Shown here: piece after piece, positions 30,967 through 33,459 of the stretch
Layout: every line of letters starts with the position of its first letter
Position numbering within the stretch: the first letter of the stretch is position 1
DNA from: Bacteroidota bacterium
GTDB lineage: Bacteria; Bacteroidota; Bacteroidia; Cytophagales; Cyclobacteriaceae
Direction of reading: 5' to 3'
Length of the DNA stretch: 64,000 nt
Assembly: GCA_018267135.1 (NCBI GenBank)
Contig: JAFDZA010000026.1
Span: forward strand, 62,001 to 126,000
The notes under the pieces: model-generated
What the model was told of the DNA's origin: nothing
Databases searched by the model: none
Seen by the model: only the letters and a program-made list of their open reading frames with translations
Program-made: the position numbers and the translations under genes

Positions 30967-32145
30967 ATGGATTTATTTACCGAATCGAAGCGCATTGTAG
31001 TTACGTGCAACAAAAGACTGGCCCCTTACCTCGAAAAAGAAATAGAGGAGTTGGGGTATGCCGAATCTATAGAACGTACCTTTTCTACCGGAGTGGAGAT
31101 GATGGGTACGCTGGCCGACTGCATTCGGTTAAACCTAAACCTTTTTTGCGCCAGCCAAGTGCTGTTTTCGCTCATGGAATTCAAATGCCGGGATGCCGAG
31201 GTGTTATACGACAAGCTGATTCAATATCCTTGGGAAAGGATCATTCCCGAAAACGGGTATTTTGCTGTTACCAACCACACCGAAAACTTTACCATCAACA
31301 ATGAGATGTATGTAAACGTAAAAATAAAAGATGCCATTGTCGATCGCTTTCGCAGAGAAACCGGTCAGCGGCCTAACTCCGGCCCGGAGTTAAACCACGT
31401 GGTGGTACATCTGCACTGGCGCGAAAACCAGGCAGAAATTTTTTTAGATACATCGGGAGAAACATTAGCTAAACACGGCTACCGCAAAATTCCGGGCAAA
31501 GCCCCCATGTTAGAAGCCTTGGCCTCTGCCACTATTTTAGCCACTAAATGGAATCGAAATTCTCCCTTTGTTAATCCCATGTGCGGGTCGGGCACGCTGG
31601 CTATTGAGGCTGCTCTTATTGCCACCGGCCGCAGGCCGGGGTTATTCAGAAAAAATTATTCCTTCATGCACGTGGTCGGGTACGATTCCTCTGTTTATAA
31701 AACCGAATTAAATAAACTTGAAAACCAGATTATAGAGCTGCCACAACTAAAGATTTTGGCCACCGACATTAAAAAGGATGCCATAGATATTTCTAAGGTA
31801 AATGCCGCCCTGGCCGGTGTAGAAAAATTGATTGATTTTGATGTGTGTGATTTTGAATCTACGAATATACCCACGCCTGCCGGGGTTGTTTTTATTAACC
31901 CCGAATACGGAGAGCGTTTGGGCGATGTGGCAGAATTAGAACAAACCTATTCCCGCTTAGGCGATTTCCTGAAAAAAAAATGCCAGGGATATACGGGTTA
32001 CATCTTCACGGGAAATTTAGACCTCGCCAAAAAAATAGGTCTTAAAACCAGCCGCAGAATTGAGTTTTATTCTGCTAAGCTCGATTGCCGATTGTTGGAA
32101 TACGATTTGTATGCGGGGAGTAGAGAAGTGAAAACAAATACGTAA
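30967..32145 (+). CDS. THUMP-domain rRNA methyltransferase, RlmL-like
   Basis: A 392-residue class I SAM-dependent methyltransferase of the RlmL/N6-DNA-methylase-like group that modifies a guanine of 23S rRNA. A THUMP domain covers about residues 45-160. The SAM site is NPMCGSGTLAIEAAL. The catalytic motif reads NPEYGER instead of NPPYGER. The last 30 codons (from 32054) are duplicated, with only synonymous changes over most of the stretch, at 32872-32961 beyond the HEPN/MNT pair, so this 3' end may have been brought in with that pair. Confidence 0.88.
   Translation: MDLFTESKRIVVTCNKRLAPYLEKEIEELGYAESIERTFSTGVEMMGTLADCIRLNLNLFCASQVLFSLMEFKCRDAEVLYDKLIQYPWERIIPENGYFAVTNHTENFTINNEMYVNVKIKDAIVDRFRRETGQRPNSGPELNHVVVHLHWRENQAEIFLDTSGETLAKHGYRKIPGKAPMLEALASATILATKWNRNSPFVNPMCGSGTLAIEAALIATGRRPGLFRKNYSFMHVVGYDSSVYKTELNKLENQIIELPQLKILATDIKKDAIDISKVNAALAGVEKLIDFDVCDFESTNIPTPAGVVFINPEYGERLGDVAELEQTYSRLGDFLKKKCQGYTGYIFTGNLDLAKKIGLKTSRRIEFYSAKLDCRLLEYDLYAGSREVKTNT
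32054..32127 (+). repeat. Copy 1 of a duplicated rlmL 3' end
   Basis: This stretch aligns from GCAGAAT onward with 32873-32946. About nine differences occur in the first 69 bases, and all keep the amino acid. It is the functional 3' end of the methyltransferase gene as it stands now. Confidence 0.85.
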
Positions 32146-32183
32146 TCAAAAGGTTCTTATTATCTTAGCACAGAATTAAAATC

Positions 32184-32576
32184 ATGCTCACCAAAGAAGG
32201 TCATATTGATTTTTGGAAAAAAGATGCCGAGAGAAATTGGGAGACGGCTTCGTTTTTAATGAGCGGTCGGCAATTTGTGATGGCGCTTTTTATGTTTCAT
32301 TTAACAATTGAAAAATTGTTGAAAGCACATTGGGTGAAAGACAATACCGATAATTTTCCACCGCGCTCACATGACCTCCAATATCTGCACAATCAAACCG
32401 ACCTCGATTTACCTGCAGACGATTACATCTATTTGGCTGTAGTCAATCAATGGAACATTGACACGCGTTATCCCGATTACAAAGAAAAAATTTATTCGAT
32501 CGCTTCCGAAGCGTTTGTGAAAACGCATCAAGAAAAAATCAATTCGTTGCGGTTATGTTTACTCGAAAAGCTATAA
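32184..32576 (+). CDS. HEPN domain protein
   Basis: A 130-residue all-helical HEPN-domain protein. Landmarks are the N-terminal W..DAERNWETA helix, MFHLTIEKLLKAHWV, PPRSHDLQYL and NIDTRYPDY, as in the PF05168-type HEPN partners of minimal nucleotidyltransferases. The RX4-6H ribonuclease motif of active HEPN toxins is not seen. It overlaps the nucleotidyltransferase gene by 22 bases, so the two are coupled. The pair is a candidate toxin-antitoxin or substrate-binding module and sits inside the duplicated rlmL end. A TATCTTAG box upstream may be its own promoter. Confidence 0.85.
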   Translation: MLTKEGHIDFWKKDAERNWETASFLMSGRQFVMALFMFHLTIEKLLKAHWVKDNTDNFPPRSHDLQYLHNQTDLDLPADDYIYLAVVNQWNIDTRYPDYKEKIYSIASEAFVKTHQEKINSLRLCLLEKL

Positions 32577-32866
32577 GAATATACATTCAAGATTTCATTG
32601 GAGAATTAAAGCAACTTGGTTATCAACCTGAGAAAGTTGCTTTGTTTGGCTCTTATGCGTACGGTCGCCCACATGAGTTAAGCGACATTGACCTTGCTGT
32701 TTGGGATAAAAAATTTTCTGGCTGCGGAAGCGTTGATGTAGAGCCCATCGCTGCCGTTCTTTCTAAATTTCCTTTTTTGGAGTTGCATCCTTTTTCACTG
32801 GACGACACACCCGAAACCAATCCATTTGTTGGTGAGATACTCAAGCACGGAATAACTATTCAATAA
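32555..32866 (+). CDS. Minimal nucleotidyltransferase (MNT)
   Basis: A 103-residue DNA-polymerase-beta-like minimal nucleotidyltransferase. The signature GSYAYGRPHELSDIDLAV holds Gly32-Ser33 and the metal-binding Asp44 and Asp46. In MNT-HEPN systems of the MntA-HepT type the enzyme adds AMP to the HEPN partner and so neutralises it; whether this pair does so is not known, since the HEPN motif is incomplete. Its ATG lies within the end of the HEPN gene. Six bases after its stop the remnant rlmL tail begins. Confidence 0.87.
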   Translation: MFTRKAIRIYIQDFIGELKQLGYQPEKVALFGSYAYGRPHELSDIDLAVWDKKFSGCGSVDVEPIAAVLSKFPFLELHPFSLDDTPETNPFVGEILKHGITIQ

Positions 32867-32871
32867 CAAAA

Positions 32872-32961
32872 TGCAGAATCGAGTTTTATTCTGCCAAGCT
32901 CGATTGCCGATTGCTGGAGTACGATTTGTATGCCGGAAGCCGGAGAAAAACAGAAAACTAA
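32872..32961 (+). pseudogene. Remnant second 3' end of the rlmL gene
   Basis: The frame from 32872 reads C, then RIEFYSAKLDCRLLEYDLYA, then GSRRKTEN and TAA. It repeats the C terminus of the methyltransferase at 32051-32145. The changes in the shared part are synonymous (att/atc, gct/gcc, ttg/ctg, gaa/gag), and the codons are richer in G and C, closer to the body of the gene. It has no start of its own and is best read as the displaced original tail. Confidence 0.85.
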
Positions 32962-33033: not shown

Positions 33034-33459
33034 ATGAAGCGCGAAGAAACCATAGACCACCACATCAGAACCGCCTGGCATGGAATTTCCAGATTCTATA
33101 ATCAACAGGCATCTGCCTTTGGGGGCACCATGTCTATCGGCTTTGCGCTGCTTACCATTCATGGAGATGAAGGAACTCCAGCCACAAAAATTGCCCCGCA
33201 AATGGGCTTAGAGCCACGAAGCCTTACCCGCTTGCTCAAATCCATGGAAGATAATAAACTGATCGTGCGCAAAACCGATAAAAACGATAAACGCTCCGTA
33301 CGCATTTTTTTAACCAAAGAAGGAAAACGAAAACGCGAAAACGCAAAAGAAATAGTAATCCGCTTTAACGAGACTGTACGAGAAGAAATACCACAACAAA
33401 AATTAAATATCTTTTTTGAAGTTATTCAACAGATACAAATGCTTTCAAAAAAGAATTAA
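33034..33459 (+). CDS. MarR family transcriptional regulator
   Basis: A 141-residue MarR protein with the winged HTH in the middle (ATKIAPQMGLEPRSLTRLLK as recognition region, DKNDKRSVRIFLT as wing) and terminal dimerisation helices. It stands 40 bases before fadN at the head of a fatty-acid oxidation cluster, so it probably represses that cluster in response to acyl-CoA; the ligand is inferred from context only. A palindrome lies upstream. ATG start at 33034. Confidence 0.88.
   Translation: MKREETIDHHIRTAWHGISRFYNQQASAFGGTMSIGFALLTIHGDEGTPATKIAPQMGLEPRSLTRLLKSMEDNKLIVRKTDKNDKRSVRIFLTKEGKRKRENAKEIVIRFNETVREEIPQQKLNIFFEVIQQIQMLSKKN

Follow-up and report, generated by a model that had tools for sequence, protein, structure and literature searches.

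Small chromosomal toxin-antitoxin pairs move without a transposase, and how they do so is the question taken up here at a locus within a 64,000-nucleotide stretch of DNA (the window), part of a 3.4 Mb Bacteroidota genome (G000). Those of its near relatives that carry a name are MAGs of Bacteroidetes and Cyclobacteriaceae. A pair of genes for a HEPN-domain protein and a minimal nucleotidyltransferase (MNT) is located there between an rlmL-like gene and marR, and the 3' end of rlmL is present on both sides of the pair. Which of the two tails is native, and how did the pair come to lie between them? The features of the locus are as follows.

30967 to 32145, plus strand: rlmL-like 23S rRNA methyltransferase gene (THUMP and UPF0020), intact, ending in AGSREVKTNT
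32054 to 32120, plus strand: tail copy 1, the 3' end of intact rlmL, with the GSRE end type associated with the cassette (repeat and comparison)
32121 to 32183, plus strand: rlmL C-terminus linked to the cassette, stop, and HEPN leader (comparison with G033 and G004)
32184 to 32576, plus strand: HEPN-domain gene, 130 aa, putative toxin (PF05168, E 1e-12)
32555 to 32866, plus strand: MNT gene, 103 aa, putative antitoxin (PF01909, E 5e-8; GSYAYGRPHELSDID motif)
32867 to 32872, plus strand: right joint between the cassette and the native rlmL tail
32873 to 32939, plus strand: tail copy 2, the displaced native rlmL 3' end (repeat and comparison)
32940 to 32961, plus strand: rest of the native C-terminus and stop (GSRRKTEN-stop), native end type
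33034 to 33459, plus strand: marR, conserved right neighbour in G000, G033, G001, G002, G004 and G031

The two tails form a direct repeat (32054-32120 and 32873-32939) of 67 bp with 6 mismatches (91%) and a spacing of 819, detected in a search of one flank of the HEPN-MNT pair against the other (E about 5e-24). Copy 1 belongs to the 3' end of the intact rlmL; copy 2 directly follows the pair. The preliminary description had claimed a double tail around the pair, a sharp start of the match at GCAGAAT, silent differences and an intact host gene, and each of these was recovered. In the rlmL frame, 8 codons differ between the copies from 32059 to 32124, 8 of 8 synonymously, and rlmL is whole. From 32125 on, the copies diverge in amino acids (E/R, V/K), and the C-termini read SREVKTNT in copy 1 and SRRKTEN in copy 2, each before a stop. 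The argument from base composition is weak: GC is 47.8% in copy 2, 43.3% in copy 1 and 45.0% in the rlmL body. A chance repeat is ruled out by 67 bp at 91% identity, and an assembly artefact by the same structure in the separately assembled genome G033. The objection that copy 2 might be a general repeat fails as well, a protein search having found no further rlmL tail copy elsewhere in the 3.4 Mb genome. Each tail copy opens with a hairpin, GCAGAAT ... ATTCTGC, with 7-bp arms (32054-32075 and 32873-32894); the palindrome is longer in G001. The hairpin at the start of copy 2 thus puts a palindrome base right at the right joint, which is possibly relevant to where this joint formed.

The HEPN gene (32184-32576) and the MNT gene (32555-32866) overlap on the same strand, and PF05168 and PF01909 confirm the identities proposed for them. 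MNT carries the nucleotidyltransferase motif GSx10DxD (GSYAYGRPHELSDID at residue 32). Both this motif and the pairing of the genes resemble the type VII HEPN/MNT systems (PMC7641770; PMC11586414). The window pair differs from these in two respects. The ribonuclease motif R-x4-6-H is absent from HEPN in 11 of 11 aligned homologues, in which H63 and R95-Y96 are invariant, and MNT stays below the NCBIfam MntA equivalog cut-off (28.3 bits versus 60). On both counts the pair is described here as no more than toxin-antitoxin-like. The earlier claim that an integrase is absent agrees with the surroundings: no recombinase is located beside the window cassette (neighbour genes inspected, Pfam run on four genes), and the cassette ends carry no terminal inverted repeats.

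The order rlmL-X-marR-hydroxyacyl-CoA dehydrogenase is kept in six genomes, and the genomes of the relatives are mostly MAGs. X represents HEPN-MNT with a double tail in G000 and G033, the latter being the independently assembled MAG SZAS-69 with about 90% nucleotide identity to the window. HEPN-MNT with a single tail is found in G004. In G001 and G002, X is empty and rlmL is followed by marR with one tail; empty sites of this kind had been proposed as a check. Three unrelated genes occupy X in G031. Sharing of the double tail by all relatives had been named as a possible refutation; one of them (G033) has it, and the others have single tails. The G031 insert (L246, 3478-5699 after reversal) lies in the rlmL-marR interval on the opposite strand, without tail duplication; by eye, its genes are rhodanese-like and lipoprotein-like. 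A dehydrogenase tree unites G000 with G033, then with G001, and leaves G004, G031 and G002 outside this group; for the genomes sampled, rpoB gives a consistent picture. Only the G033 pair is closer to that of the window than the G004 pair (about 82% aa identity over the matched parts). The HEPN gene of G004 (L039/L098) is frameshifted and MNT is intact. This is the pattern expected if the toxin decays first, and it could also be a sequence error of the MAG.

The end types of rlmL separate the two tails. Cassette-free rlmL ends that were examined read GS[R/K]R (G010: GTRR). The ends of copy 2 match this type (window GSRRK, G033 GSKR), and copy 2 is continuous with the native marR spacer. On these two grounds copy 2 is the displaced native rlmL tail, moved about 0.8 kb downstream; the earlier proposal that the native tail was pushed downstream is thereby borne out. 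A GSRE end is seen only in the three cassette-bearing genomes: it closes copy 1 in G000 and G033 and the single tail of G004. The end of copy 1 thus belongs with the cassette. A donor origin of copy 1 is only suggested by the GSRE common to G004. As a candidate microhomology, GCAG is present at the right joint and after MNT in G004; a match of 4 bp is within chance.

The tails record an exchange between the copies. At certain sites, the four tails of G000 and G033 fall into two pairs. Six such sites in a row (24, 30, 36, 42, 48 and 51) agree within each genome and differ between the genomes, and the edge sites 6, 63 and 66 retain the difference between copy 1 and copy 2. Judged against G004 and G001, 48C and 51T are window-only states present in both window copies, and 36T and 42A are G033-only states present in both G033 copies. 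The 51T state turns a conserved E into D. The within-genome agreement of sites 24-51 thus shows that the middle of the repeat was homogenised, evidently by gene conversion, separately in the G000 and G033 lineages after their split. In keeping with this, G000 and G033 are about 81% identical in their copy-1 tails and 90-92% in the rlmL body and the cassette. As a consequence of gene conversion, the similarity of the tail copies cannot date the insertion. At fourfold sites, the synonymous divergence between window and G004 is saturated to an equal degree in the cassette and in the neighbour genes. A transfer from a G004-like donor is therefore not supported as recent. Because the saturation is equal in cassette and neighbours, the data would also fit an early insertion in a shared ancestor that was followed by losses.

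The best reading of the locus is an integrase-free acquisition that left one target end on each side of the pair, by homology-facilitated illegitimate recombination or by insertion with long target duplication. The chance that the first route joined the pair on the left to an rlmL end of its own type (GSRE) and on the right to the recipient's end is judged to be about even. Incoming DNA would carry an rlmL tail and the cassette. Homologous recombination inside rlmL would account for the left side, and end-joining or microhomology for the right side. As an outcome, rlmL would stay whole and one surplus tail would remain. Gene conversion between the tails afterwards homogenised their middle, separately in the two lineages. 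With a repeat on either flank, RecA would be able to remove the cassette cleanly, resulting in an empty site as in G001 and G002, and toxin-antitoxin activity, acting as toxin and antidote, would select against cassette loss. We infer retention of the cassette by addiction. Clean deletion through the repeats, with addiction punishing loss, would explain the occurrence of long target-end duplications around addiction-type modules.

In the second route, held to be a serious possibility somewhat short of even, the cassette entered the rlmL 3' end de novo and duplicated about 70 bp. The insertion would be ancestral to G000, G033 and G004. Of these, G004 would have lost copy 2; from G001 and G002 (and G031), recombination between the tails would have removed the cassette. 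The one-tail empty sites in G001 and G002 and the long repeat on both sides without a recombinase suit this history, as do the G004 cassette, which is close to the window's and has the left joint in common with it, and the saturated synonymous sites, which agree with a vertical age. It demands three or more subsequent losses on the tree ((G000,G033),G001),(G004,G031,G002), however, and the tail copies, whose origin gene conversion has blurred, end in different gene-like C-termini. Homology-facilitated illegitimate recombination is slightly favoured because the copy 1 end is linked to the cassette and because of the event count on the tree. The synonymous divergence, which suits vertical descent, and the single tail of G004 speak against it, and no donor genome was identified, which counts against incoming DNA. 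Long target duplication is viable on account of the saturated synonymous sites and the left joint common to G004.

The mark is not confined to rlmL. HEPN relatives were gathered from genus, order and GTDB genomes. Repeats of 35-270 bp bracket 28 of 126 HEPN-MNT loci and 22 of 1260 same-length windows from the same contigs (E<1e-6; both counted by hand from the results table). Fisher's p of about 6e-18 is only indicative, because the loci are not phylogenetically independent and the same-contig windows can overlap. After removal of near-duplicates, 25 of 103 loci score, including two tandem MNT copies and several with mainly terminator similarity. L072 and L161 are not target duplications but tandem duplications of HEPN-MNT or of MNT itself; the Hymenobacter matches L067, L070, L073, L074 and L151 represent mainly terminator similarity. 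The targets are unrelated: rlmL, lpdA, dnaK, an ABC ATPase, a ferredoxin-like gene and a HlyD-like exporter gene. Gene 5' ends serve as targets in two cases (L062 and L094). This range of unrelated targets, 5' ends included, with duplicated stretches of 35-270 bp, argues for insertion with long target duplication.

An ordinary segmental duplication would have copied the rlmL tail downstream independently, with HEPN-MNT associated by chance. Short duplications do occur anywhere, as in 1.7% of the control windows, but repeats are strongly enriched around HEPN-MNT pairs and around the toxin modules behind lpdA, and the empty sites have a single tail, which renders this very improbable. The rlmL loci themselves are bracketed in 0 of 30 cases. 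Among ParE and HicA loci, 8 of 56 are bracketed, which is not significantly below HEPN-MNT. The HicA loci L214 and L217 and the ParE locus L172 carry direct repeats of 130-320 bp (87-95%) that are HEPN-MNT-like. A mechanism specific to HEPN-MNT is unsupported, ParE and HicA loci being bracketed too. The bracketing mark is seen around toxin modules more widely, and given these loci, nothing about it is special to HEPN-MNT.

A second target was studied in Hymenobacter, where the region downstream of lpdA was read in 60 genomes. The toxin modules behind lpdA are HEPN-MNT or a Hcp(TssD)-fused toxin with PoNi immunity. A second lpdA tail is present in 10 of 15 toxin-module genomes, one apparent HEPN-MNT relic (G476) included, and in 2 of the 45 genomes in which something else follows lpdA (p about 2e-6, a significance inflated by kinship). 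The duplications start at varying positions, 26 to 141 bp before the lpdA stop. Within G417, the lpdA tails differ at 1 of 84 sites; at least 4 differ from other species. Repeated use of this one site, together with the gene-end location and the intact target, would be expected from an integrase or transposase that integrated at gene 3' ends and has since been lost or acts in trans. Such an enzyme is highly unlikely: by inspection no recombinase gene lies beside the window cassette, which also lacks terminal inverted repeats; a single target shows several junctions and duplication lengths (right joint -26 to -141 from the lpdA stop); and the targets are unrelated, with variable duplications and no constant att core.

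Several lpdA loci are more complex. In Hymenobacter telluris (G189; L283 and L125), lpdA is followed by the Hcp-fused toxin and PoNi, a degenerate lpdA tail, HEPN-MNT and another lpdA tail, a series of two modules with three tails in all. In one junction type the lpdA tail is joined in frame to MNT: near position 2200 (HEPN-forward) of L061, L068 and L070, the MNT frame runs into the last lpdA codons and ends in TENRAIHM, or a sequence close to it, before the stop. The C-terminus and stop of the antitoxin are thus supplied by the tail of the host gene. In L304 (G377), a DUF433 and PIN-like (DUF5615) pair is located 174-744 after lpdA, between lpdA and HEPN-MNT, and is likely a second toxin-antitoxin module.

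In the genus of the window, a HlyD-like gene of G081 is followed by HEPN-MNT with a 69 bp tail copy, and G075 is the empty counterpart. The two genomes are 95-98% identical in the first half of the HlyD-like gene and about 82% in the second half. Past the start of the right tail, identity is about 71-92% for about 350 bp and then 98-100%. This identity profile places the G081 cassette within a recombined block. Both tails may already have been part of that block when it moved, since the low identity extends about 350 bp past the right tail. The right tail of G081 shows 11 differences from the G075 tail; 6 of these have the base of the G081 left tail, 5 of them in 31-59, which suggests partial conversion of the right tail by the left. 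The comparison of G081 and G075 was withdrawn as proof of a donor tail, both because the low identity passes the right tail and because this tail is partly converted. In G061 (L359) and G072 (L360), two more pieces of the HlyD-like gene's own 3' end, both diverged, lie downstream of it, interspersed with small genes, which gives the impression of repeated insertion.

Restriction-modification systems have been described as inserting with long target duplication (Nobusato 2000 and Furuta 2010, drawn here from reviews and citing papers, PMC3874152 and PMC3031569). The likeness consists of a two-gene toxin-antidote unit, no linked recombinase, variable duplications of about 100 bp and an empty site in relatives, a geometry that favours the target-duplication route at rlmL. 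The differences are the cargo, which is HEPN-MNT here (Hcp-toxin/PoNi at lpdA), the location mostly at gene 3' ends, the concerted evolution of the copies and the link of the copy 1 end to the cassette. Homology-facilitated illegitimate recombination that displaces a native 3' end has been proposed for T6SS effector-immunity arrays of Vibrio cholerae (PMC5361080). These arrays and the Rhs C-terminal displacement share a homologous left anchor, a new pair and the native 3' end downstream as a remnant. At the loci described here, in contrast, the anchor is a housekeeping gene and not a toxin gene, the displaced piece is the tail only, and the targets vary. Mobile HEPN-MNT pairs have been described by their presence and absence between close relatives in Deinococcus and Thermus (Makarova 2009; PMC2701414). 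The gene pair and its patchy presence between relatives are the same as here; a flanking duplication is not reported in PMC2701414 (0 matches for 'direct repeat' in the text). Within the open-access literature, both routes are known for other toxin-antidote modules, and for HEPN-MNT they look new.

Tentatively, and with less confidence than either route commands, long duplications of host gene ends may be a general mark of recombinase-free entry by toxin-antidote modules, in which scarless deletability spares only addictive cargo and gene conversion maintains the repeats for long periods and alters the host C-terminus. Such a single entry mark would link HEPN-MNT, T6SS effector-immunity pairs and restriction-modification systems. 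The scar, with one target end per side, offers a way to find recent insertions and to polarise gain and loss. It could also be used to test whether addiction protects DNA that is otherwise deleted by recombination. Present, at other genes, around about a fifth to a quarter of the sampled relatives of this pair, it hints at how integrase-free selfish gene pairs enter and persist.
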